In this document: positions 2,017 through 16,262 of the stretch, in pieces | Layout: each line of letters begins with the position of its first letter | How positions within the stretch are numbered: position 1 is the first letter of the stretch | Assembly (NCBI GenBank): GCA_021813595.1 | Contig: JAKAKF010000286.1 | Location: 1-16,262 of the forward strand | Source of the DNA: a bacterium | GTDB lineage: Bacteria; SZUA-79; Acidulodesulfobacterales; Acidulodesulfobacteraceae | Direction: 5' to 3' | DNA: 16,262 nt | Notes under the pieces: model-generated | Databases searched by the model: none | Seen by the model: only the letters and a program-made list of their open reading frames with translations | What the model was told of the DNA's origin: nothing | Made by a program: the position numbers and the translations under genes

Positions 2017-3060
2017 ATGGCAAATATCTATAAAAGAGGCGATATTTATTGGTATCAAATCCGTTTTGACGGACTCAGATATCGCGGTTCTACCAAAACC
2101 GACAATAAAAAACTCGCACAACAAATCGCAAATACAATCGAAGCCGATTTGGTCCGGAAAAAATTCAGCATGCCGGTTAAAAATAATTATATATTTTTGA
2201 CGGCGTGGGAGCAATACAAAAAAAGTCTTACAAATATCAATAGGACGATTAAAAATAAAGAGTTTGCCGCTAATCATTTTTTACCTGTTTTTAAAGACAA
2301 GAACATCTCGGAAATTACACAATCCGATATTAAAGAATATCAATTAAAAAGAAGATTGGAAGTCTTATCTTTGCCAAAAAATCAACAAAAAAAGGAAAGC
2401 GAAATAAACTTCCGTTGGATTAATCTTGAAATTTCAACCTTACATCATTTTTTTAACTTCTGCATTGAAAAGGGACTCATCGAAAAGAATCCGGCAAGCG
2501 GCGTTAAAAAACTAAATGAATTATCCCGTCTTAAAACCCTTTCCGATTCCGACATCGAGAAGCTCATCGCCGGCGCAACGAATAAATTAACCAGAGACTT
2601 AATAACCTTTTTAATTTATACCGGCTGTCGGAAAGGCGAGGCTCTTAACCTTAAATGGGACGACGTGGATATGCAGAACGACGTCATAGCAATTAAGGGG
2701 ACGAAAACGAAATACGACAGATATATTCCTATCAGCAAGCCCCTAAAAATGCTTTTGAGCGGCATTAATAAAATTCAGGACTGTTTATACGTATTTAACA
2801 AAAACGGGGCTAAATTAGGCGATTTTAAGAAGTCTTTCCATACCGCCTGTAAAAATGCAGGATTTAAGGATATGCACATTCACGATTTAAGGCACGTCTT
2901 CGCGAGTAAAATGGTAATGGACGGGACATCGCTTTATATTACAGGGGAGCTTCTGGGACACAGGACGACGCAGATGACGAAAAGGTATTCGCATTTAGTT
3001 CCAAGCACTTTACGCAAGGCCGTTGACGACGTGTGGAATAAGAGTAGTAAAAAAGATTAA
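2017..3060 (+). CDS. int: Tyrosine recombinase/integrase
   Basis: A full-length (347-residue) phage-type tyrosine integrase. The N-terminus (KRGDIYWYQIRFDG) matches the small arm-binding domain of tRNA-targeting integrases. A SAM-like core-binding domain covers about 60-170. The catalytic domain shows TGCRKGEAL with Arg205, a beta-hairpin lysine (probably Lys230 in TKTKYDR), HDLRH with His289 and Arg292, LLGH with His315, and the nucleophile Tyr324 in KRYSHL. All catalytic residues are present, so it should be active. It integrates and, with an excisionase, excises the element by strand exchange at the tRNA-Arg end that lies 165 bases upstream. There is no strong Shine-Dalgarno site before the ATG, which suggests weak or leaderless translation. 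The probable excision partner is the HTH protein at 6909. Confidence 0.95.
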   Translation: MANIYKRGDIYWYQIRFDGLRYRGSTKTDNKKLAQQIANTIEADLVRKKFSMPVKNNYIFLTAWEQYKKSLTNINRTIKNKEFAANHFLPVFKDKNISEITQSDIKEYQLKRRLEVLSLPKNQQKKESEINFRWINLEISTLHHFFNFCIEKGLIEKNPASGVKKLNELSRLKTLSDSDIEKLIAGATNKLTRDLITFLIYTGCRKGEALNLKWDDVDMQNDVIAIKGTKTKYDRYIPISKPLKMLLSGINKIQDCLYVFNKNGAKLGDFKKSFHTACKNAGFKDMHIHDLRHVFASKMVMDGTSLYITGELLGHRTTQMTKRYSHLVPSTLRKAVDDVWNKSSKKD

Positions 3061-3131: not shown

Positions 3132-3473
3132 TTATAAGGATAGTAATTCTTTTAGCGTTTTATCTAACAAATCTAAATCGCCGGATGACAATGCCCCTAA
3201 TTTTTTCAAAATCAGGGATTTATCTATCGAAGATATAGCGGACTTAATAACCGAAGGCTTTAGGAGTCCGGCGGAAACGTAATCCCCGATAAGACACTCT
3301 CCGATTCTAAGAGGATTTTGGGTATTGCTTGTAACTGCCATTATAATTATATCTAAATAACAGCTATTGTAAACATCGGAACTTATTACGACCGCGGGTC
3401 TTTTTTTAGAAAATGTTTGATCGCTAAAAGGAAAGGGAACGAGAATTATATCGCCCTTTTTATAAGGCGTCAT
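3132..3473 (-). CDS. PemK/MazF-family toxin (mRNA interferase)
   Basis: The protein has the PemK/MazF hallmark N-terminus (KKGDIILVPFPFSDQTFSKK, followed by RPAVVIS) and the family length, 113 residues from the chosen start. Such toxins cleave mRNA in the cytoplasm and are neutralised by the partner encoded just upstream. The reading frame is open further upstream to 3509. The ATG at 3473 is preferred because GAGG (3486-3483) lies 9 bases before it and it gives only a 14-base overlap with the antitoxin gene, typical of coupled toxin-antitoxin pairs; the ATG at 3482 has no spacing from that site. In a mobile element the pair probably stabilises inheritance. The target sequence is not predictable. 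Confidence 0.9.
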   Translation of the reverse strand: MTPYKKGDIILVPFPFSDQTFSKKRPAVVISSDVYNSCYLDIIIMAVTSNTQNPLRIGECLIGDYVSAGLLKPSVIKSAISSIDKSLILKKLGALSSGDLDLLDKTLKELLSL

Positions 3474-3651
3474 ATGCGGCATCCTCGGCGTTATCCCATA
3501 TCTTTTCAAAAATTCTTTCGGAAAGAACCTGCGAAGAATGAATCGTATGTTCTTCTTTAACTTCTAAAAATTTAATAAAATCCAATATTTCGGGAAGAAA
3601 TTCTTCCGGTAATCTATCAATTTCATTAATTATTAAATCTCTGCCCGACAT
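3460..3651 (-). CDS. Antitoxin of the PemK/MazF pair (DUF2281-like)
   Basis: This small acidic protein of 63 residues starts MSGRDLIINEIDRLPEEFLP and continues with EILDFIKFLEVKEE, a pattern of the DUF2281/VapB-like antitoxins in which an N-terminal helical segment mediates dimerisation or DNA contact. The tail (EKIWDNAEDAAYDAL) is the acidic, aromatic-rich type that binds into a MazF-like toxin. AGAGG precedes the ATG at a good distance. It overlaps the toxin start by 14 bases and shares its promoter at 3691-3719. A DNA-binding role in autoregulation is inferred from the dyad at the promoter, not seen directly. Confidence 0.82.
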   Translation of the reverse strand: MSGRDLIINEIDRLPEEFLPEILDFIKFLEVKEEHTIHSSQVLSERIFEKIWDNAEDAAYDAL

Positions 3652-3753: not shown

Positions 3754-4515
3754 TTAAGAAAGGCTTTGCGCCATAAAAGCGACTTCACCTATTACGCTAT
3801 CTATATTAATATTTTTAAGAGAGAAAAACGGTTCTTGATTTAATCGTTTAAGATTATTAATATTGATTAAATCAGATAAAGAAAAAGTTTTAAGCGGTAG
3901 TTTAGAATTTTCAGAGCCTAATTTAATCTTATCGTTTTTTCCGTCAATTTCGACAATTCTTCGAATAAAAATTCCGATATTTGCAAAATTAATAAGTATC
4001 AGTTGACCTTCAAATAATTCATTAATAGTTTGATTAAAGTTTTTTTTGAACTGAAAAAAAGTTAATTCTTCAGCGGTTTTTTTATTTAAAAAAAGAGGCG
4101 AAATACCGACGTAAGCACCGTTTTTAATTATAGGAAACATAGAATCGTCTGAAATTTGAATAATGAAAGAACAGAATAAATCGCGCGGCAAAGATAAGAA
4201 AGAATAATTATTTTCAGGATAATAAAAAAAGTTATTTTTGCCAGTGGTTCCGATTAATTTTTTCCGGGCGATTTTAATATCTAAATGATTATTAGTATCT
4301 TCTTTAAAAAAGGACGTAATATCGACATTAAAAAACTCTGCAAGTTTATATAAATTATGGATTGGAATTTTATCGATTCCAAGTTCATATTTAGTTAGAG
4401 AACCTTTATTTATTTGAAGTTTTGTAGAGACATCGAGAATAGTTAAATTACGGCTTTTCCGTAAAAACCTCAATTTTAGACCAATATTTTTATATATTTC
4501 TATTTCTTTATCCAT
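3754..4515 (-). CDS. cI-like repressor: XRE HTH plus S24/LexA-like domain
   Basis: Residues 8-70 form a Cro/cI-type HTH (IGLKLRFLRKSRNLTILDVS, then KLQINKGSLTKYELG). The C-terminal half has the S24 signature ISDDSMFPIIKNGAYVG with the nucleophile position Ser125, and ends in the usual VIGEVAFMAQSL strand. The second catalytic position, a Lys in the usual VKRL motif, reads IRRI here (Arg185), and no clear Ala-Gly cleavage site is visible in the linker. It may therefore dimerise through the S24-like fold without RecA-stimulated self-cleavage. It is divergent from the replication/transfer operon, the classic place for the element's master repressor, with AT-rich regulatory DNA between them. No good Shine-Dalgarno site precedes its ATG. 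Confidence 0.88.
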   Translation of the reverse strand: MDKEIEIYKNIGLKLRFLRKSRNLTILDVSTKLQINKGSLTKYELGIDKIPIHNLYKLAEFFNVDITSFFKEDTNNHLDIKIARKKLIGTTGKNNFFYYPENNYSFLSLPRDLFCSFIIQISDDSMFPIIKNGAYVGISPLFLNKKTAEELTFFQFKKNFNQTINELFEGQLILINFANIGIFIRRIVEIDGKNDKIKLGSENSKLPLKTFSLSDLININNLKRLNQEPFFSLKNINIDSVIGEVAFMAQSLS

Positions 4516-4728: not shown

Positions 4729-6009
4729 ATGCAATTTAAAGCTAATACTAATACTATCCAACTGCAACAACCTGCTCCTGCTAATATATTGGCGGAGCAG
4801 GCATTATTAGCGGCAATTATAATTGATAATGCAAACATGAAACAAGCCGCAATGCTTACGCCTTCCGATTTTTACGATTCACAGAACCAAGAAATTTTTG
4901 CGATAATCAAAGAATATTATAACTCCAAAAAAACAATAGACCTTACGAGCTTTGTTGGAACCGAGTATGAAGATTATATGCTTGAACTAATGGATCTTCC
5001 GGCGGGATTAATTAATCTAAATAAATATATTCAAGACATAAAAGACAATTCAAATAAACGCCAAAGGATATCACTAATTAACGATTTTAGGGAGAATAAA
5101 ATCGATTACGAAAACTTCATTAGTTCGTTGCAAAGACTATATATAACAAAAAAAGAAGTAATTAAAACCAGCGAATTAACCCAAAACATCCAACCAATAA
5201 ACGAAAAAAACATATTCGGCATAAAAGTCCAGTACGGAGCTATCTTTACGCTTGCTGGCGCCACGTCGGCCGGAAAAACCGAATTTGCGATTGAGATTGC
5301 AGATGTGCACGCTCACATAGATAATTGTGTATCAATATATTGCGTATTTGAAGGCGGAATTAATGAGTTCGGAATCAGACTGAAAAAGAAAAATATAAAT
5401 AACGAAAATCTATATATGCTTCATAATCCAAGCATAGAAGACATTCAAGCCGCAATTAACCAATTTATTGATAAAAAAATATTAGTAATAATCGACTATC
5501 TTCAAATGTTTGCGCGTCGATTACAGGCTAATGATACCAGACCTTCAGACTTTCTTAAAAAATATACAAGCTATATATACGCAAAACTCGACGAAATAAG
5601 GTCTAAACAAGATGTTTGTTTTTGTTTTTTGTCTGCATTGAATAATCAGGGAATAGGAGAATTAAGACAGTTAAAGAGTTTCGATGATATAACCTTCCTA
5701 AAATCGATGAAAGAAGACGGAAATATTCAATATGACAGCGATTACATATATGCTATGCTTTTCGCTGACGAAGGCGAAAAAAACGAAAATAAATGGTCCT
5801 TAGGGAGGAAAAAATTAGGCGCAAATATGCGGAAATATATATTATTGCACCCAGCTAAAATGTCAAGAATAGGCGAAGATACGCAAGATGTTCTATATGT
5901 TTATGATAACGACAGTGGACGATATGATAGGCTTGCACTCTTAGACACTGACTTAAATAATGAAAAAAATGAATTCAGGAGGAAATATGCGACATCATAT
6001 TTCGAGTAA
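4729..6009 (+). CDS. DnaB-type replicative helicase
   Basis: Residues 17-80 match the DnaB N-terminal domain (NILAEQALLAAIIIDNANM, then SDFYDSQNQEIF). The RecA-fold ATPase domain has a Walker A GATSAGKT (177-184, Lys183) and a Walker B LVIIDYLQM (252-260, Asp256). At 426 residues it is slightly shorter than chromosomal DnaB (about 450-470), and the N-terminal domain and linker look reduced. The protein should form a hexamer that unwinds DNA at a replication fork. As first gene of the operon and overlapping the initiator gene by 23 bases, it most likely serves the element's own replication, as plasmid- or phage-borne DnaB homologues do. The ATG lacks a clear Shine-Dalgarno site. Confidence 0.9.
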   Translation: MQFKANTNTIQLQQPAPANILAEQALLAAIIIDNANMKQAAMLTPSDFYDSQNQEIFAIIKEYYNSKKTIDLTSFVGTEYEDYMLELMDLPAGLINLNKYIQDIKDNSNKRQRISLINDFRENKIDYENFISSLQRLYITKKEVIKTSELTQNIQPINEKNIFGIKVQYGAIFTLAGATSAGKTEFAIEIADVHAHIDNCVSIYCVFEGGINEFGIRLKKKNINNENLYMLHNPSIEDIQAAINQFIDKKILVIIDYLQMFARRLQANDTRPSDFLKKYTSYIYAKLDEIRSKQDVCFCFLSALNNQGIGELRQLKSFDDITFLKSMKEDGNIQYDSDYIYAMLFADEGEKNENKWSLGRKKLGANMRKYILLHPAKMSRIGEDTQDVLYVYDNDSGRYDRLALLDTDLNNEKNEFRRKYATSYFE

Positions 6010-7264: not shown

Positions 7265-7552
7265 ATGAACTATGATGTCAAAAAAATGCAAAAGACAGCC
7301 CAATTTCTCGTTCCAAAGATACGCGACAATTATAAGTTGATTATTATAGCTGCAACGATACAGCAGTTTATATCGATAATTGGTGCATTTATCTTATTTT
7401 ATTATTCTTTAACTTTTTCGGTTTATCTAATTTTTCCGTCGATATTTTTATTTTTATATTTTATGTATATATCTATGAATAAAAGCACAGTTAAGGCTAT
7501 AAACAAAGAAATCAGGAGGCAGACAAAATGCAAACAATACAGAAAAAAATAA
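7265..7552 (+). CDS. Small two-TM membrane protein, unknown function
   Basis: 95 residues. A basic N-terminus is followed by two hydrophobic segments at about 26-46 (LIIIAATIQQFISIIGAFIL) and 51-70 (FSVYLIFPSIFLFLYFMYI), and a strongly basic tail (KAINKEIRRQTKCKQYRKK). AGAGG precedes the ATG. It overlaps traH by 25 bases, so translation is probably coupled. I do not recognise the family. Its size and place just before traH suggest an accessory inner-membrane part of the mating apparatus, like the small TraL/TraQ/TrbA-type proteins of F, but there is no sequence evidence for any of these. Confidence 0.75.
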   Translation: MNYDVKKMQKTAQFLVPKIRDNYKLIIIAATIQQFISIIGAFILFYYSLTFSVYLIFPSIFLFLYFMYISMNKSTVKAINKEIRRQTKCKQYRKK

Positions 7553-9156
7553 TAATTGTAGCTCTGTTTTTTTTCATTATGACTTCTTATCTAAGTTTTA
7601 TTGGTTTTTATCGCGTCAGGCCTGCGTTTGCAGGCGTTAATTCTTTCGTTTCCGCAGGTCTTAACGGCGCAAACTCGGTATCTACGAGCGGCGGAGCAGG
7701 GGTATTTCATACGCAGGGCGAAAATATTTACGCTTTAGGCTATAGCAACGTAAGATTCAATACCGCCGGACAGAGCTTGCAGTTATTTACCATAACCCCG
7801 CCTAATTTCTCGATAGGATGTTCAGGTATAAGCGCCGAATGGGGAGCTTTTGCTATGCTTGGTTCCGAATTAATGCAGGTTTTACAGTCAATAGTCCAAT
7901 CGGGCGAAGTATTGGTATTCGCTTTCAACATGGTTTTAGGCGTCCTATGTAAGCAGTGCCAGACCATCATGACGCAAATAGAAGGTATCGCCAATAAGCT
8001 TAACGGGCTTAATTTTAATTCTTGTCAAACGGCCGAAGCGATGGGAAATATTGCAGGGGCGGAATTAGGAAATATGATAGGTAAAACAGGCGTAGCGGGT
8101 GCTACAAACGCTTTCGCCGACCAAGTTAGTAATACTTTAGGCAATGTTTCTAATGCCGTTGGAAACTTTGTTAATACCGTTAACGGCACAATGAATTGCG
8201 CTTCTACTGAAGCCGGAGCGCAGGCGCTAGTAAACTCAGGATTTTCGAGTTGCGGACAGCAGGCGGCGGCTCATCAGTTTCAACTCGGTTCTATGCTAAG
8301 GTATGCTTTATCTCAAGCGCATATCGGTTTAATAGCTGGTTCGAAACCCGGGTCCGGCGGTAAAGACGATTTAATTGGAATTTTAAGGGGAGAATTTATA
8401 GGGGATATAGTCGGATATCCATCTCAAAGCAATACCGGTCAAAATGTTCTCAGACCCATACCGCCTTCCGCGCCGGTTTCTCAAAACACGGAAGGAAGTT
8501 ATATGACCGATCTCGTACATGCTTTGCTATACGGCAGTCCGGGTATGAGCGTTATAAAAATAGCCCCGATAAACCCTACGACTCCGACTACGTTAAGTCA
8601 GGTTGAAGAGGGTCCGACTCCCGATTGTTTCCCCGGCTTTTATTTTTACTATCAGTTTTATCTGGACGAGTTGGAAAGCAGTTACTTTCAAATGGCCGTG
8701 CCTTCGTCGGCATCCGTTTCAAGCATATGTCCAAATGTAACATTGTCCGGTTTAAGTCAGCAGCAGCTTAATAATTTCATCACCAACTCTACGCTTCCGG
8801 TAATACTTATATCGAAACTCGCTTACGTCAACCAGGACCCCGGATTAATGAACGAAGCCGCAAAAGCAATGGCATTAGGGTATTTGCATAATATATTTAC
8901 GGATATGTTAAAAGCGGTGGAAAATAATGTCGCTGCGGGTAAAAACGCCGATAAACAACCTCAGCTTAAAATGGACGAAAAATATGCTTCGCAAATTAAC
9001 GTTATAGTTAGATATATTAACACTGAATACCAGCAGCAATTAAGCAAGCTAAATATTCAGCAGGCTAATGTAACTTATTACGCAAATCTTAATAAGGAAT
9101 GGGTAAGTTCGCTATCGCAATATGGGCTTGCGGGAAATTATAATTACAATCCTTAA
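7528..9156 (+). CDS. traH: TraH, F-type conjugative pilus assembly protein
   Basis: It has a long signal peptide with probable cleavage after Ala35 (RPAFA/GVNS), so it acts in the periplasm. The TraH signature follows in order: FSIGCSGIS (Cys98, in place of the usual GCGGID), SELMQVLQSIVQSG, a CxxC motif LCKQCQTIM (Cys141, Cys144), and NSCQTA (Cys166). In F-type systems TraH works with TraF and TraW at the outer membrane and is needed for pilus extension; disulfide formation is important. At 542 residues it is longer than F TraH (about 460), with extra Gly/Ser/Asn-rich sequence in the middle. AGGAGG lies 8 bases before the ATG, inside the preceding gene. Confidence 0.9.
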   Translation: MQTIQKKIIIVALFFFIMTSYLSFIGFYRVRPAFAGVNSFVSAGLNGANSVSTSGGAGVFHTQGENIYALGYSNVRFNTAGQSLQLFTITPPNFSIGCSGISAEWGAFAMLGSELMQVLQSIVQSGEVLVFAFNMVLGVLCKQCQTIMTQIEGIANKLNGLNFNSCQTAEAMGNIAGAELGNMIGKTGVAGATNAFADQVSNTLGNVSNAVGNFVNTVNGTMNCASTEAGAQALVNSGFSSCGQQAAAHQFQLGSMLRYALSQAHIGLIAGSKPGSGGKDDLIGILRGEFIGDIVGYPSQSNTGQNVLRPIPPSAPVSQNTEGSYMTDLVHALLYGSPGMSVIKIAPINPTTPTTLSQVEEGPTPDCFPGFYFYYQFYLDELESSYFQMAVPSSASVSSICPNVTLSGLSQQQLNNFITNSTLPVILISKLAYVNQDPGLMNEAAKAMALGYLHNIFTDMLKAVENNVAAGKNADKQPQLKMDEKYASQINVIVRYINTEYQQQLSKLNIQQANVTYYANLNKEWVSSLSQYGLAGNYNYNP

Positions 9157-9573: not shown

Positions 9574-12516
9574 ATGTACACTGTTTACGCTTTCGGAAAC
9601 GGCTATCTGCTTTACGGAATGTTTCAGGCGATAGCCTTGTTTTTTAAAAATAATAATATCGGGGTTCTGTTTACTATATTGGCTTTAATAGCGGCGATTT
9701 ATTATGCTATCAGAGTTACTATTTATCATCAGCATTCGCTTCTTTCTACCGCTAAATACGTTATAGTTTTCAGCATAATACTGACGGGGCTCGTTTATAA
9801 TCAGACTACCGTTATTATTAACGACGTTTCTAATCCCGGAGCGCCGACTAACGCCCAACCTATAAGTAACGTTCCTTGGGGAATAGCGGCTTTATGGTCG
9901 GATTTTACGACTATTCAATACGGGCTTGCCGAAGATTTTACTAATGATTTTTCAGTTCCTGCCGGAGATAATATGTTATCGGAAGGCTTAGGCGTTTCAA
10001 TAATACAGCAGGCGGACAGCGCGACTATTTCGACGTCTAATTCCTATCTTTATCAGGATTATAACCAGTATATTTCAAACTGCGTAGCGCCCGGAATATC
10101 CGCCGGATATTTAGACGTTTCCGAACTTTTGGGAGCAGGAGACGCAACCGATACCGCGTCCCTAACTTATAACGCTAACGCCGCAAACAGTATTTGGACG
10201 GTTATGAGCGCTTATACGAACGGTTTTGGCGGTAATATATTGACGACTTGGTATTCAGGCAGTTCCTCAACTTCCGTTACCGAAACGGCTTCGGGTCAAA
10301 GCGATCCCGGCGGAACGACGGTCACCTGCTCTCAGGAAACCACTTGGCTTCAAACCGCCGTTCAGGATTATATAACAAATAACGCAGGTCCGGCTATAGC
10401 GGGCGGTTTACAAATGGCTTCCTTTTCCGACTTGTCAAATGCCATAGGCGCGGTTAATCCTTATATATTTAATATGCAGCAGGGCGGTCAGGCTCAGCTT
10501 ATGCAGGCAATAGGCGTCAATATGTATGCTCCCGCAATTTTAAAAATGGCTCAGGCGTCCGGTTCAAACGCTTCTTCTTTGGCCGTAGCGACCGGAACGG
10601 GAGAAATTTCTACCCAGACGGGCATGATGGAGTCCGGCATACTTGCAGGACAATATATGCCGATAGTTTTCGGCATATTCGAAGCGATTTTACTCGGCGC
10701 TTCCGTTATTATTTTTATTCTTATTTTAACGCACATGGGCGTGTCATACCTTAAGCTCTTATTTCAGCTTATGATTATGATAACGATTTGGCCGTCTTTG
10801 ACCGCAATATTTAATTATATAACGCAGCTTATAATTCAAGCAAAATATTTGCCTATAGCCGGACTTGGTTATTCGGTTTCCGGAAGCGGAACCGTAAACG
10901 CTTTTCTTGCAGAATCTTTGTCATGGATGGGTTATTTCTCTTGGTCAGTCCCCATGGTCGCCTATATGATAGCAAGCGGCTCAAGTTACGCCGTTACAAG
11001 CGTGGTCGGCGGAATGGACAGCGCAATATCTAAAAACGCTTCGGTTAGGGGGGCGGAGGCCGGAATGGGCAATATGACGGCGGGGCAGATTAAGGATAAC
11101 AATTATCTTGCTAATGCGACTAACGTTACGCATACGCAGAATACTGGATATAAAGCACCGCATGCCACTATTCAGGAAGGTACAAAAGAAGAAACTGTAA
11201 CGCTTGGTCATGGCATTACGGCGAATGAAACAATTCAAAATGGACAAGTAGTAGCGGCTCAGCTTACTCAGGCTGGAACTAATAATGTAGTAGATTTAAA
11301 AAGGGGATCGAACGGTCAGTTGGAGGCATTCAATTACAAAGGTAATTTAGCCGGCAAAAATGAACAAAGTTGGGTAGCCGGAATAAAAAAAGATATAAGT
11401 TCTGAGAACAAAGAATTACTTTCCAAAAAAGAAGCATTTAGTAGCAGCATTAATCAAGTAGATAGCGCCATAAATACTAAAACCGCAAGTATGAATGCTT
11501 CGAGGGGTAAAGGCGTAAATAGAGACGCAATAGTTAGCAGCGGCAATAAGACCGGCGATCAAAATAATTACAATACAAAATCCACGGCGTCTGGAGGAGC
11601 GGGAATTGCGGGGTATCTTGGCGGTATTTTTAGCGCTGTCTTTGATTTCAACGAAAGCAACGGAATAATGAAGTCGGTTGGTAACGGCTCCGGCGCGGGA
11701 GTAAAACACGCAATTAATCAACAAATGCACAGGCTCAAAGTTTTAAGCAACGCAAACCTTGGTTCTATTTCTACCGCTGCAAGCAAAGAATTAAGCGCAT
11801 TAACTTCATACGATAAAACTTTAACTAAGATAGACAGTTACAAAACTGATTTGAGCGAAGCCGAACATGGTAAATTGAATGTTTCCGGAGGAATAATGCC
11901 TTCCGTAATAAACAATATGACTCAGGACAGGAGTATCGGCGGTTTTGCTTCGACATTTAACAAATTAAATAATGCGAGTGCTAATGCGGCAACGCTCGGT
12001 AATTTTATAAGCATGACCGCTGATAATTATAAAGGAATGAATACTGTTTTAAGCGGAGTCTCGCCCGCCATAAAAGCGCAAGGATCAAAGTTAAAAGGTG
12101 AAACTTCCAATCTTACTCCTTCAGTTATAGGTCGAAAAGTGAATGAGGCAATATTAAGCAATAACGGCGAATTTAATTATCTTACTGGTTTATATAATGA
12201 AAAATCCAGTGAGAGTACTCAATATTATAATAAGCCTATAGCTCCGCAGTATTTTATTAAAGCGCCGACCGCAAGTAATATAAGTCCAGGAAGTCCTATT
12301 ATAAATAGTGCGCTTAATAGTGTTGAAACAGGTTCTGATTATTTTATGGGTTTAGGCAATGGGATTGTTTATGGAAACAAAGCATATGAAATAAATACAT
12401 CTTCCCAGCTTGTGGGTCTAAACGGAAAACCTGGTGCTTATTGGGCGGGAGTTAAAGGCGGACAGTTGTTGTCTCCTTATAATTTAGGATATACACTTAT
12501 TCATCCAGATCTCTAA
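9574..12516 (+). CDS. traG: TraG-like mating-pair stabilisation protein
   Basis: The N-terminus (MYTVYAFGNGYLLYGMFQAI) matches the TraG N-terminal domain of F-type systems. Predicted inner-membrane segments lie at about 28-46, 60-77, 361-390 (MPIVFGIFEAILLGASVIIF), 393-416 and 455-475, with a large Ser/Ala/Gly/Asn-rich region between the second and third. Residues 480-980 form a soluble, low-complexity, helix-prone domain. The whole is 980 residues, near F TraG (938). In F the N-terminal half is required for pilus assembly and the C-terminal half stabilises mating pairs and takes part in entry exclusion. AAGGAG precedes the ATG. The C-terminal half shows little recognisable family similarity, which is common since it evolves fast. 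Confidence 0.87.
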   Translation: MYTVYAFGNGYLLYGMFQAIALFFKNNNIGVLFTILALIAAIYYAIRVTIYHQHSLLSTAKYVIVFSIILTGLVYNQTTVIINDVSNPGAPTNAQPISNVPWGIAALWSDFTTIQYGLAEDFTNDFSVPAGDNMLSEGLGVSIIQQADSATISTSNSYLYQDYNQYISNCVAPGISAGYLDVSELLGAGDATDTASLTYNANAANSIWTVMSAYTNGFGGNILTTWYSGSSSTSVTETASGQSDPGGTTVTCSQETTWLQTAVQDYITNNAGPAIAGGLQMASFSDLSNAIGAVNPYIFNMQQGGQAQLMQAIGVNMYAPAILKMAQASGSNASSLAVATGTGEISTQTGMMESGILAGQYMPIVFGIFEAILLGASVIIFILILTHMGVSYLKLLFQLMIMITIWPSLTAIFNYITQLIIQAKYLPIAGLGYSVSGSGTVNAFLAESLSWMGYFSWSVPMVAYMIASGSSYAVTSVVGGMDSAISKNASVRGAEAGMGNMTAGQIKDNNYLANATNVTHTQNTGYKAPHATIQEGTKEETVTLGHGITANETIQNGQVVAAQLTQAGTNNVVDLKRGSNGQLEAFNYKGNLAGKNEQSWVAGIKKDISSENKELLSKKEAFSSSINQVDSAINTKTASMNASRGKGVNRDAIVSSGNKTGDQNNYNTKSTASGGAGIAGYLGGIFSAVFDFNESNGIMKSVGNGSGAGVKHAINQQMHRLKVLSNANLGSISTAASKELSALTSYDKTLTKIDSYKTDLSEAEHGKLNVSGGIMPSVINNMTQDRSIGGFASTFNKLNNASANAATLGNFISMTADNYKGMNTVLSGVSPAIKAQGSKLKGETSNLTPSVIGRKVNEAILSNNGEFNYLTGLYNEKSSESTQYYNKPIAPQYFIKAPTASNISPGSPIINSALNSVETGSDYFMGLGNGIVYGNKAYEINTSSQLVGLNGKPGAYWAGVKGGQLLSPYNLGYTLIHPDL

Positions 12517-12640: not shown

Positions 12641-13042
12641 ATGAACATCTTAATAATTTTAGGATCTGTTGTCGGTTTTTATTTGGTTCTTTTTTTTATT
12701 ACAAGAATTAATCGAAATAAAGATAGACAATTAAAATCTAATGTTGATGTTGTAAAATCGCCGCGACGGCGGGAAATAGAACACCAAGACATTAAAGGTA
12801 AATCGGTATTTGGCGGAGATAAATACGTGCTTGATTTTGCTAATGAGAAATATAATATAGACAATAAGCCTGCAAAAAGAGGAGACCCTTTAACATTTAC
12901 GTCATACACGCCTGCACCTTTACATAAAGATGAGAAAAAAGGTTCTTTGCTGATTACTCTTTTATTTTTGGATAATCCGCTTATGTGGGCTTTATTTCCG
13001 TCTATCAGACGTTCTATAAGGGATTATTTGAATAGAGATTAA
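12641..13042 (+). CDS. Small membrane-anchored protein downstream of traG
   Basis: The chosen ATG at 12641 follows a GGGGG site (12631-12635) and gives 133 residues; an upstream in-frame ATG at 12557 lacks such a site. One clear N-terminal membrane segment (NILIILGSVVGFYLVLFFIT, about 2-21) is followed by a basic soluble stretch with KSPRRREIEHQD. A second hydrophobic segment comes near the end (SLLITLLFLDNPLMWALF), before a basic tail. No family is recognised. In F, the gene after traG is traS, a small inner-membrane entry-exclusion protein of similar size. The matching position makes an exclusion or accessory role possible, but the sequence itself does not show it. Confidence 0.7.
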   Translation: MNILIILGSVVGFYLVLFFITRINRNKDRQLKSNVDVVKSPRRREIEHQDIKGKSVFGGDKYVLDFANEKYNIDNKPAKRGDPLTFTSYTPAPLHKDEKKGSLLITLLFLDNPLMWALFPSIRRSIRDYLNRD

Positions 13043-13255
13043 TTTTTTTCAAACTGATTTCCGCGCAGATAAAATCATTTGTTTTTCTAAATTTATTTAC
13101 TAAAAAGGCTTTAATTTAGATAGACGACCCGTTTGTTTTTTATGTTTAAAAACGACAAAACCGCTTCAAACTGCAATTGGAGTGATGACTTTTGATGAAT
13201 TTTGGAGTAAAAAATTAGATTCTATTTAATTTTTTTTATAAAAAACAGCTAAATT

Positions 13256-14086
13256 ATGACGATAGATTTTTCAAAAATTAAAGATTCATTAAGCAAAAAG
13301 AGAATAGAATTACAAAATAATGATAAACTTTTATTGCAATTTATAGCAGACAATAAATATATTGACGACGTAACCGCCAAAATTTTATTGAATAAAAAAA
13401 GTGACAGAGCTTTTTGGGACAGAATTAAAAAACTAATCTCTTACAATTATATTCGTAAAACAAGAATCACGATAAATTCCGCTGATTGGAATGCAAAACC
13501 TGAACTGCTGACGGCATTTAGTCTTGATACTCAAGGTTGTAAATTATTTGGCAAAGAAAAAATAAAAACAGTAGGCGTTCAGGGCGAACATCTTAAACAT
13601 AATTTATACGTCCGCAGGGTAGCCGCGATAGTAGAAAGATTTAGGATAGATGAAAACTGTAACAAAAACGAACTCCTAAATTATGAAACGGAATCGGTTT
13701 TGGACGACTATAACGACGAAAGAATTTACATAGACAAAAAGAATAAATATAAAATCCGTCCCGATATTCTTATTCGAAATTTAAACTTATTAATAGAAAT
13801 AGAACTTAACATAAAACCAGACCACAAGCATTACGGTAAGCGTCTTTTTTGGTCGCAATATCTTAAGGAATACGATAAGACGGTATGGTTTGTGTATAGT
13901 CAAAAAGATAAAGAAAGATTAATAAAAATATTTATGAATTACGCCGGCGAGTCGTTTAAATATGATTCGGTTTTAGACAAAAAAATGATTTTTTCGGATG
14001 CGGCAGATAAAAATTTAGTCGTAGTTTTCGATGATTTCTTTTCTAATCCTGAAACTTTTTTGAAACTCTGGACTGGACTGAATTAA
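13256..14086 (+). CDS. Replication-relaxation / MOBC relaxase-like protein
   Basis: 276 residues. The N-terminal half (about 20-110) looks like a winged helix: LLQFIADNKYIDDVTAKILL, then RAFWDRIKKLISYNYIRKTR. The C-terminal half has a PD-(D/E)xK-like pattern: IRPDILIRN with Asp170, then LLIEIELNIK with Glu181, Glu183 and Lys187. A winged helix followed by a PD-ExE-K core is the architecture of the replication-relaxation family (PF13814) and of the CloDF13 MobC group of relaxases. Such proteins nick or bind DNA at a mobilisation or replication origin. The assignment is from pattern and transfer-gene context. Alternatives are a restriction-type endonuclease or a Rep accessory factor. No good Shine-Dalgarno site precedes the ATG. 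The next 2.2 kb has no gene and is a natural place for its target site. Confidence 0.6.
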   Translation: MTIDFSKIKDSLSKKRIELQNNDKLLLQFIADNKYIDDVTAKILLNKKSDRAFWDRIKKLISYNYIRKTRITINSADWNAKPELLTAFSLDTQGCKLFGKEKIKTVGVQGEHLKHNLYVRRVAAIVERFRIDENCNKNELLNYETESVLDDYNDERIYIDKKNKYKIRPDILIRNLNLLIEIELNIKPDHKHYGKRLFWSQYLKEYDKTVWFVYSQKDKERLIKIFMNYAGESFKYDSVLDKKMIFSDAADKNLVVVFDDFFSNPETFLKLWTGLN

Positions 14087-14757
14087 GATTATTTTTATCA
14101 TTTTTCACGCCGGAAATTAATTTTATCCTGCGTTTTTTTTGCGTAAAATCGATTTTAAGCCCGCCTATTTTTAACCTGATAGTAATAAACGTCCTAAACG
14201 AAAAAAACAAGCCTTAAAATTAAAATTTGAAAGCCGTTTTTAATTCAAAAATCATCTAAAAGTTAAAAACTTTTTGACGGAATTAACTTAAATTTTATAT
14301 TGTTTTTTATTTTTTTTTTATAAAAAAGCGGAATGATTATCGTTAAATTTTTTTTAATTTTTAAGTTTAAAATTGCAAATCTTTGTTTTTAAAATGACAA
14401 AATTTCAATCCATTTTTATTAAAAAATAATGTTCTTAAAACCGTTTTTAAGGTCGTCTTTTTTTATTTAATAAAGAATATTCAGACATAAAATCGTCGCC
14501 TTTAAATGCAAAATACGGTCGATTTTTAAGCATAAAAAAACATAAAAAAATGCACCTACCCCCCGTAGTTACCCCCAACTCAAATATATACGGTAATTTG
14601 CCATGATTAAGTATTTAATATTATTAATAAATTTCAAATTTGAAAAACACCGACTACTTGTTGATTTGTGTGGCATTCACTTTTATTTTTTTTATCGGGG
14701 ACGAACCTATGTTTTTATATTTATATATTTTGATTTAATTAGCTGTTTAGATTATCC
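14087..14757. other. AT-rich non-coding stretch after the relaxase-like gene
   Basis: No convincing gene is present. The stretch is extremely A/T-rich with long T and A runs. It holds a 7-bp hairpin, AAAAGTT-AAA-AACTTTT (14258-14274), and several scattered variants of CCGTTTTTAA/CGATTTTTAA near 14148, 14234, 14440 and 14520. A short C-rich patch (TACCCCCCGTAG) lies near 14557. The low complexity would melt easily. The function is unknown. Confidence 0.5.
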
Positions 14758-14779
14758 GCCGAAAAAAAATAAAAGCGAC

Positions 14780-14840
14780 CGCTTAACGATAAAACGCTGT
14801 TAAGCGCCTGCAAGCAGGTAAAAGTCAAAATACCGACTTT
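14780..14840. repeat. Three consecutive small hairpins
   Basis: CGCTTAAC (14780-14787) pairs with GTTAAGCG (14799-14806). CCTGC (14807-14811) pairs with GCAGG (14814-14818). AAAGTC (14821-14826) pairs with GACTTT (14835-14840). All arms are perfect and nearly abut. They open the hairpin-dense tract. Confidence 0.65.
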
Positions 14841-14857
14841 AAGTCGTTCATCGCATA

Positions 14858-14976
14858 AAGCGCGCCGACCGCTCGAATGAATGCCGAAAAATAAATTTTA
14901 CAGAGGAGGTTGCTTCGCAACATTTCTTCTGAAAATTTATTTTTCCCACCCCTACGGGCTACCCCTCGGCGCGCTT
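14858..14976. other. Large nested hairpin, candidate structured RNA or oriT
   Basis: The outer arms AAGCGCGCCGA (14858-14868) and TCGGCGCGCTT (14966-14976) are perfect complements. Inside them GAAAAATAAATTTT (14886-14899) pairs perfectly with 14932-14945. The tip GTTGC-TTC-GCAAC (14909-14921) forms a third stem. All three are coaxial, which is strong evidence for a folded unit about 119 bases long. It is more GC-rich than its surroundings. The strand cannot be decided. Confidence 0.7.
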
Positions 14977-15021
14977 CCATTTCGTTGTGGGCTCACCAGT
15001 TTTGTTAGTTGTGCATAGGTC

Positions 15022-15121
15022 AGGTTTTTATTCGGATAATGATATGCTGCGCTATTGTTAATCTGTCTTTTCGTTTCCACTTGCGAACCTGTTTTGTTTA
15101 TCGAACTCCGAATAAAAACCT
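15022..15121. repeat. 15-bp perfect inverted repeat, 70-base loop
   Basis: AGGTTTTTATTCGGA (15022-15036) is the exact reverse complement of TCCGAATAAAAACCT (15107-15121). The spacing suggests a long stem-loop or two binding half-sites. The loop carries the first copy of the 23-base direct repeat. Confidence 0.7.
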
Positions 15122-15251
15122 TGCAGAGTCCTTAAGAAACTTGCTCATGAATGTCGCAAGTTTCCCTACAACGATGTTGAAGGTGATACGACCGTTGCGT
15201 AGAAGAATTTTTTACATCGTTTTCTTGCTTTCGTTTCCACTTGCGAACCTG
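15069..15251 (+). repeat. 23-bp direct repeat, two copies 160 bases apart
   Basis: A perfect 23-base sequence beginning TTTCGTTTCCACTTGCG and ending AACCTG occurs at 15069-15091 and 15229-15251. The shorter ACAACGATGTTG (itself a dyad) also occurs twice, at 15168-15179 and 15252-15263. With only two copies it is not a CRISPR array. It could be a pair of protein sites or a partial tandem duplication of a structured unit. Confidence 0.7.
15136..15164. repeat. 9-bp perfect hairpin
   Basis: GAAACTTGC (15136-15144) pairs with GCAAGTTTC (15156-15164) around an 11-base loop, between the two copies of the 23-base repeat. Confidence 0.65.
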
Positions 15252-15269
15252 ACAACGATGTTGTGTTTT

Positions 15270-15570
15270 TAAAATCTCACTCGTAGTGAACTGTATAAAT
15301 AATTTTTGCTTGCGGTATTATAATAAATATTTTTTCCGCTTTGTCCTTTTCCCTTTTTTTCTTTTTCTTTTCTTTTAATTTCACTTCGTCCCTCGTTCGC
15401 CTTGCGGCTCTCTCGGAACACCGCCCTAACCGAACATCGTCATTTTATTCCGGCTTATTATCCGTCCGTTCTTTTATTTCGGCAACCCCGCTTTTACTTT
15501 TTTATTCTTACACATAAGCTATATATCTTTTCGTTTCAAAATTGTAACGGCTTGCGCCGCTTATTTTTCT
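15270..15570. other. Pyrimidine-rich non-coding stretch
   Basis: No gene is supported. The + strand is strongly T+C-biased, most of all at 15331-15380, where nearly every base is a pyrimidine, so the complementary strand is purine-rich. GC-rich islands interrupt it (near 15390-15425). Such strand asymmetry fits a leftward-transcribed purine-rich RNA or a replication strand signal; neither is proven. Confidence 0.45.
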
Positions 15571-15574
15571 TACA

Positions 15575-15678
15575 CAAGAAAGACGGCGGGAGCGGACATC
15601 TTCGTTTGAGCTTCTTTTATTTTAAAAGTCTTTTCGTCTTTATTGTTTTGTAGTGGAATACCCCGCCTGTCTTTCTTG
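15575..15678. repeat. 16-bp inverted repeat with one-base bulge, 71-base loop
   Basis: CAAGAAAGACGGCGGG (15575-15590) is the reverse complement of CCCGCCTGTCTTTCTTG (15662-15678) apart from one extra T. The loop length is nearly the same as that of the inverted repeat at 15022-15121. Confidence 0.65.
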
Positions 15679-15800
15679 AACCCTGCACGTGCTTTACTAC
15701 TACTACCGGACTATCTATCTACTCGTACATTTACTACATGCTTATCCGGCTATACGTATTTATATTATCTTATCTGCCATAGAGTATCTTTATAGTTTTA

Positions 15801-15821
15801 GCCCATTGCTTCGCAACGGGC
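15801..15821. repeat. Hairpin sharing its tip with the nested hairpin at 14.9 kb
   Basis: GCCCATTGC-TTC-GCAACGGGC folds with one A.C mismatch. Its tip, TTGCTTCGCAAC (15806-15817), is identical to 14910-14921 in the nested hairpin about 900 bases away. Confidence 0.55.
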
Positions 15822-15890
15822 GCCCGATTCTTTTTTGCATCGTGCCGCAATAGCAGAGTATCGGTAACTTAACCTGAGTGCATTTTTCGG

Positions 15891-15952
15891 ACTTAATTTA
15901 AGTTAATCCAGCTTTTTTCTTTGGACAGGCTTTTAAGATTAACGTTCTTAAA
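15891..15952. repeat. Two short AT dyads
   Basis: ACTTAA-T-TTAAGT (15891-15903) and TTTAAGA-TTAACGT-TCTTAAA (15932-15952) are perfect dyads 28 bases apart, just before the paired long hairpins at the right end of the window. Protein binding sites or small hairpins are both possible. Confidence 0.5.
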
Positions 15953-16015
15953 TCGATTTAGTGGGGCGCTGCGTCGCTCGCTCCTTGCGCCCGTCTATAA
16001 GGCAAAAATTTCACA

Positions 16016-16144
16016 GGCGGTTTTTAACGGAGAATTTGACAGGCGGGGAGTCGGAGACTTTAGGAACGCAAGGTCAGACGACGGCGTTTTTGACTTCGAT
16101 AAATATTTCGTCGTCCCCCGCCTATCAAATTCTCCTAAACCGCC
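16016..16144. repeat. Long hairpin unit A
   Basis: GGAGAATTTGACAGGCGGGG (16029-16048) pairs with 16116-16135 with a single mismatch. The stem extends outward, after a small asymmetric internal loop, by GGCGGTTT (16016-16023) with AAACCGCC (16137-16144). GACGACG (16077-16083) pairs with CGTCGTC (16109-16115) in the loop. The total is about 35 base pairs over 129 bases. Confidence 0.75.
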
Positions 16145-16148
16145 CGAC

Positions 16149-16252
16149 GGGGAATTGCGACAGGTTTGCTCACAGGCTTCGGCGGATAGTTTTTTAACTT
16201 GGATAAGTTATCCCATAACGTCCGTCCTGTGACCAAACCTATCGAATTCTCC
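16149..16252. repeat. Long hairpin unit B, related to unit A
   Basis: The left arm 16149-16176 (GGGGAATTGCGACAGG and onward to CACAGG) pairs with 16226-16252 with about four differences over 27 positions. The arm sequences resemble those of unit A: GGNGAATT-GACAGG on the left and CCTATC-AATTCTCC on the right. The 49-base loop contains the perfect dyad GGATAA-G-TTATCC (16201-16213). Units A and B are separated by four bases, so they form a tandem pair that may continue past the window. Confidence 0.72.
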
Positions 16253-16262
16253 TTGAAATTTT

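Follow-up and report, generated by a model that had tools for sequence, protein, structure and literature searches.

Integron attC sites and the ends of IS200/IS605 elements are recognized as folded single strands, and their structure is kept while their sequence changes. Both carry fixed unpaired or mismatched bases, and both have variable tips. The adeno-associated virus terminal repeat folds into a T in which two small arms sit on an outer stem. Among repeats without genes, the MITE-like RU and ERIC elements of enterobacteria are about 130 to 330 bp long, intergenic, and dispersed. REP/BIME sequences are likewise intergenic palindromes found at many places and tagged at one end, and an Escherichia coli RAYT, an HUH Y1 transposase, is reported to recognize REP DNA in single-stranded form and to cut it at the GTAG tag (PMC3733652).

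Here, we describe a T-shaped palindromic element that resembles each of these systems in part. Its dispersal and its one-sided tag recall REPs, but a REP is a hairpin of 20 to 40 bp with a GTAG tag and a high copy number, whereas this element is a two-armed T of 130 to 260 bases with a GCCG tag, 1 to 5 copies per genome, and a weak link to RAYTs. It shares the size range, intergenic location, and lack of genes of RU and ERIC, yet differs from them in sequence and in its T-shaped fold with two fixed mismatches. Kept structure, fixed mismatches, and variable tips liken it to attC sites and IS200/IS605 ends, although it has two arms on one outer stem and no partner integrase or transposase came to light. 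The likeness to the adeno-associated virus terminal repeat is one of shape only, as the element is dispersed and internal in contigs and does not form a genome end. Literature screened by title or the start of the abstract yielded no description of the element, and viral, phage, and plasmid collections gave no match except one viral pattern match in an open frame (12.3 bits), which we took as chance.

The copy that led us to this family lies at one end of the window, by which we mean the whole 16,262-nucleotide stretch of DNA analyzed. The window carries the integrase side of an apparent integrative conjugative element, with the following genes, hairpins, and repeats.

2017 to 3060: tyrosine integrase gene
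3132 to 3509: PemK-like toxin gene
3754 to 4515: XRE-S24 repressor gene
4729 to 6009: DnaB-like helicase gene
7528 to 9156: TraH gene
9574 to 12516: TraG_N gene
13256 to 14086, plus strand: gene for a 276-amino-acid (aa) protein, with no family match and an N-terminal part that shows winged-helix-like resemblances in its model
14886 to 14945, no strand assigned: hairpin with a 14-bp perfect stem, no comparative support
15022 to 15121, no strand assigned: hairpin with a 15-bp perfect stem and a loop of 70, no comparative support
15069 to 15091 and 15229 to 15251, no strand assigned: two copies of a 23-base direct repeat

A DsrE-like protein encoded in the window's flank is 66% identical to a homologue from Candidatus Acididesulfobacter diazotrophicus, the only genus-level name among the matches listed, the others being labeled Deltaproteobacteria bacterium or bacterium. 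The group thus probably stands close to the Candidatus Acidulodesulfobacterales, and the phylum in which the element family occurs includes Candidatus Acididesulfobacter or its kin. The nearest of the compared genomes, G001, has 23% of sampled words in common with the window. Just before the integrase gene, positions 1806 to 1863 on the minus strand give a weak tRNA match (29.9 bits, with a gathering score of 29) that ARAGORN does not call and that is possibly the attachment site. Beside the DsrE-like gene, positions 1177 to 1252 hold an inverted repeat of 82 aligned columns with a fold z score of -4.1.

The 276-aa gene follows TraG_N and is itself followed by AT-rich DNA and then by a tract, 14760 to 16262, that the initial annotation described as gene free, more GC rich than the DNA before it, and dense with at least ten inverted repeats. 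The absence of a supported gene was borne out, as the mechanical open reading frames (ORFs) span only 66 to 103 aa and the five that were checked have no Pfam match. So was the rise in GC content, from 0.23 to 0.24 at 14001 to 14750 to between 0.37 and 0.45 in the windows that follow. Counting non-overlapping perfect stems of at least 8 bp with loops of up to 80, we found 7 in the tract versus 1.8 ± 1.2 in 100 dinucleotide shuffles, and 2 versus 0.15 for stems of at least 10 bp. The excess of stems is thus real, but ten is reached only when imperfect stems are counted, and other 1.5-kb stretches of the window reach 8 to 10 stems by the same count. In 200-base windows, the RNA-fold z score of the tract falls to -3.0, no lower than the -4.1 found at 1051 or 12601.

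The right boundary of the tract is simply the window end. In G001, gene-poor DNA continues beyond the corresponding point, with small ORFs interspersed, up to a reverse transcriptase (RT) gene; on contig C2 this comprises kilobases after the 276-aa homologue, including a run of small ORFs, and contig C5 carries a related tract together with an RT gene. The C2 stretch nearest the 276-aa homologue has a z score of -13.7 over 200 bases. Most of the tract nevertheless lacks a conserved fold by the counts that we made, which outside the T element used single minimum-energy folds and may miss local hairpins: 15195 to 16003 gave 2 to 7 two-sided changes versus 17 to 36 broken pairs, two further parts of the G001 tract gave 2 to 4 versus 6 to 27, and the C2 part nearest the gene, set against two relatives, gave 2 to 4 two-sided changes and 6 to 9 broken pairs. 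A search of 30 genomes of the phylum with positions 14698 to 15195 returned only two stretches of 29 to 35 bases, at the left edge of that segment, and positions 14858 to 14977 scored 11.3 bits against model R2 (E = 0.14), which is not significant. Strong comparative support is confined to the last 259 bases of the tract, 16004 to 16262, the parts of which are as follows.

16004 to 16262, minus strand: T-shaped palindromic element, outer stem plus two arms; model matches of 53.0 and 61.5 bits, covariation, DNA fold
16254 to 16262, minus strand: 5' arm of the outer stem, paired with 16005 to 16013 in the DNA fold and in helix 1 of the alignment
16150 to 16252, minus strand: arm A, with a fixed mismatch C16161/A16241 on the plus strand (T.G on the minus strand)
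16014 to 16146, minus strand: arm B, with a long tip, a bulge beside the arm base, and a fixed mismatch C16040/A16124 on the plus strand
16005 to 16013, minus strand: 3' arm of the outer stem, paired with 16254 to 16262 in the DNA fold and in helix 1 of the alignment

Read on the minus strand, this copy is cut at its 5' side by the window end. Folded as single-stranded DNA, it has a z score of -9.8 on the minus strand and -8.4 on the plus strand, and none of 200 shuffles was as stable. A first model built from six copies identified 32 places in 14 of the 30 genomes, and a second model, built from 31 aligned copies, identified 36 copies in 15 of the 30. The 31 rows of that alignment are 30 of the 32 first-model places plus the window; those at G005:C64 and G017:C68 were left out. 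Across it, 93.7% of cells are paired (93.3% in the outer stem, helix 1), and both partners have changed in 45 of 55 pairs. The covariation score reaches 0.585, compared to 0.174 when shuffled and at most 0.145 when slid. Because the alignment was fitted to this structure, all of these figures are biased toward it. An alignment of homologues with a covariation test had been proposed as a check on the hairpins, and for 16004 to 16262 it returned strong two-sided covariation.

Each arm keeps one position that is not a Watson-Crick pair. In arm A, 28 of 31 copies have U.G at the alignment column pair 24:148, and in arm B, 22 of the 28 copies with letters at 188:279 have it there, so that T.G as read on the minus strand, or C.A on the plus strand, fills 50 of 59 cells over both arms. 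A mismatch fixed within near-perfect stems suggests that a protein may recognize the element. The tip of arm B is variable: in two G001 copies, 13 bases stand in place of 16042 to 16122, which a third copy retains, and long and short forms are swapped between otherwise near-identical copies, even within G001. The sequence GCCG stands within 40 bases 5' of the fold in 25 of the 30 copies with flank sequence and on the 3' side in 2 of 30, against a background of 12.8% in random 40-mers from the examined loci; in the window copy, this position falls beyond the window edge. GTAG, the tag of classical REPs, stands at the foot of the element in none of the 30 copies with flank sequence.

We next consider whether the fold is kept in RNA or in DNA. 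RNA stems accept G-U pairs, whereas A-C is not tolerated. For the element, we counted within the stem cores, which exclude the two fixed positions and eight edge pairs, and obtained 26 G-U and 17 A-C cells, with 18 one-sided and 342 two-sided changes. An RNase P control, built from 21 of the 28 genes found in this phylum, gave 278 G-U and 14 A-C cells and 98 two-sided changes, together with 133 one-sided changes that are not strictly comparable because RNase P is less diverged, which raises its one-sided share. Read on the wrong strand, RNase P gave 178 G-U and 47 A-C. The ratio of G-U to A-C differs between element cores and RNase P (Fisher P = 2e-9), and 12 non-redundant copies of the element repeat the pattern, with 12 G-U, 11 A-C, 9 one-sided, and 142 two-sided changes. 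This DNA-like result is one for the stem cores, since inclusion of the edge pairs, with the two fixed pairs excluded, gives 100 G-U versus 37 A-C. Because G-U is hardly commoner than A-C in the cores, we read the fold as one kept in DNA, and judging from these substitutions, the element seems to evolve like folded DNA rather than RNA.

The initial annotation had offered a structured RNA as one of its two readings, and a small structured RNA transcribed from the minus strand and spread by mobile DNA could account for several of our observations. The covariation is strong, and on the minus strand the fixed position in each arm would form a U.G wobble. Minus-strand RNA has a slight folding advantage in 11 of 13 copies, and its RNAalifold energy is -51.1 versus -41.2 for the plus strand. 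This advantage could be due largely to the T.G position in each arm. The core substitutions are unlike those of RNase P, and a search of the tract against Rfam 15 found no match at the gathering score, only below-threshold matches that were mostly miRNA hairpins; the search extended to an E value of 5 on the window tract and of 1 on three relatives. We consider such an RNA quite improbable. In a neighboring part of the G001 tract, a tmRNA fragment appears below threshold, at 22.1 bits versus 47.

A retron-like RT lies past the tract on G001 contigs C2 and C5, G017 contig C108, and G005 contig C64, at the following positions.

L012:6915 to 7676, minus strand: retron-like RT
L013:5985 to 6692, minus strand: retron-like RT
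G017:C108:26032 to 26760: retron-like RT
G005:C64:3559 to 4287: retron-like RT

This RT resembles retron RTs but falls below the NCBIfam cutoff. We rejected the element as a retron RNA, as close RT relatives occur in 3 of the 30 genomes versus 15 for the element, which is thus present in 12 genomes that lack a close RT relative. About 75 bases before the RT recur, at 74% identity, after the genes that follow it; this stretch looks like a retron msr, and one RT may possibly have two non-coding RNAs. Beside the same conjugative element in G001, L012:14947 to 16502 (minus strand) encodes an IscB-like RRXRR plus HNH protein, and immediately upstream of it lies a match to the HEARO omega RNA. The tract itself was rejected as the HEARO/omega RNA of IscB, since the only RF02033 match in L012 is at 16278 to 16502, outside the tract. 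At about 12900 to 13330, L012 also holds nested, very stable hairpins side by side (z scores down to -13.7), some of which match the model weakly (21.6 and 18.3 bits); the window tract differs there in sequence.

Copies of the element occupy plasmid, type IV secretion system (T4SS), and chromosome-like sites. Their neighbors include TraC and TraD-type genes, Replicase, ParA, repressors, integrases, Cas12a, an epimerase, cytochrome c, and an MFS transporter, and no neighboring gene family recurs in more than 4 of 24 contexts of dispersed copies. At L086 (G026:C55), around 7522 to 8184, the element adjoins a Cas12a gene and what appears by eye to be a CRISPR array. The T core is contained in three types of ORF-less unit at unrelated sites: one of about 330 bp (six copies, of which those at L086 and L089 have a common left flank), one of about 260 bp (L097, L098, and L102), and one of about 210 bp (five copies). 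The outer stem of the core forms an inverted repeat, and the ends of whole units are not sharp. On its left side, the 260-bp unit consists of a repeat that is widely dispersed in its own right. A repeat of variable length beginning about GGAGCGTTAGATATTTCGTGTCAGTCTG, at L097:7252 to 7350, recurs in many of the 30 genomes, and a similar sequence directly follows a Y1 transposase gene at L160.

Matching sites are found both with and without the element. The junction between traD and the next gene measures 360 bp, unit included, in G008:C199 versus 12 bp in G017:C126, and the two flanking proteins are 97% and 84% identical between them. Elsewhere in this operon, G017:C126 carries two units at other junctions. 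At the junction between traC and the next gene, the element is present in G017:C126 and G003:C1, and there is no model match above 8 bits in G012:C20, G008:C51, or G005:C49. Such filled and empty sites fit a MITE or small mobile repeat, and the presence/absence pattern is compatible with both insertion and deletion.

These distributions bear on the other reading of the initial annotation, in which the tract is the origin of transfer (oriT) of the conjugative element, nicked by the product of the 276-aa gene. The tract does follow a gene whose product is DNA-binding-like in its N-terminal part, and the element also carries TraH and TraG_N. That gene had been called relaxase-like, a label that found no backing: it has no match to a relaxase family in Pfam, NCBIfam, or PADLOC, its 14 relatives are all unnamed, and a PDB search with the predicted structure, itself of low confidence (mean pLDDT of 59), gave no match at an E value of 0.001 or better. 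An oriT would be expected as one site per element beside the relaxase, whereas the structured core is multicopy, dispersed over varied sites in 15 of the 30 genomes, and missing at matching junctions of related operons, the very absence in homologues that had been named as counting against an oriT. We regard this reading as highly improbable. The suggestion that the hairpins matter as folded DNA finds support at 16004 to 16262, where strong covariation occurs and the stem cores lack the usual preference for G-U over A-C, even as the specific oriT and RNA readings do not hold up; these judgments apply to that module and not to the hairpins of 14760 to 16003.

A single-strand origin or promoter of plasmids and conjugative elements would make different use of the same fold: the strand exposed in the course of transfer or replication would fold into the T, and a primase or RNA polymerase would start synthesis there. 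The DNA-like pattern of change and the fixed mismatches are in keeping with this, as are copies beside T4SS, ParA, repressor, and integrase genes. Relatives of the conjugative element fetched with the tract also carry the T (G001 C2 and C5, G017 C108 and C92, G005 C64, and G010 C40), but these were found partly by the T-element sequence itself and are not independent. As circumstantial evidence, a copy lies no more than 4 kb from 3 of the 7 Replicase genes (PF03090), while the other 4 have none within 4 kb on their contig. Against such an origin stand the empty matching junctions, two copies within one operon (L054), and chromosome-like sites such as those beside epimerase, cytochrome c, and MFS genes. 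On balance, we find this explanation unlikely.

Y1 (HUH) transposase genes, another candidate source of a partner, occur in 12 of the 15 genomes with the element and in 7 of the 15 without. Among ten loci with a longer Y1 gene, which we take to be RAYT-like, only L104 (59.8 bits) and L168 (36.3 bits, plus 29.7 on the other strand) have a model match close by, and one of these two is weak. The link to RAYTs is thus a weak one. Neither the Y1 nor the Replicase association settles the partner protein.

Taken together, we favor a reading of 16004 to 16262 as one copy of a gene-less mobile palindrome family, MITE- or REP-like, that acts as folded DNA, with a probability of roughly 0.5. A protein supplied in trans would recognize the element as a folded single strand or a cruciform, by features such as the hairpin, the mismatch, and the one-sided tag. 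REP and IS200/IS605 HUH transposases use features of this kind. The same protein would move the palindrome. A broader proposal, doubtful but possible, is that the T palindrome, with a mismatch in each of its two arms and GCCG on one side, represents a new class of structure-recognized DNA site, a folded single strand read by a protein of plasmids and conjugative elements across the phylum. It would serve both its own dispersal and, once transferred, the start of expression or of DNA synthesis.

Such strong covariation would normally lead to the announcement of a new RNA, and it is the missing clear preference for G-U in the stem cores that points instead to folded DNA. If that reading is true, other orphan structured families could be sorted by the same comparison of G-U with A-C. 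The search for the protein that recognizes the element, in a group for which metagenomes are the main source of knowledge, could also start from the one-sided tag and the fixed mismatch.
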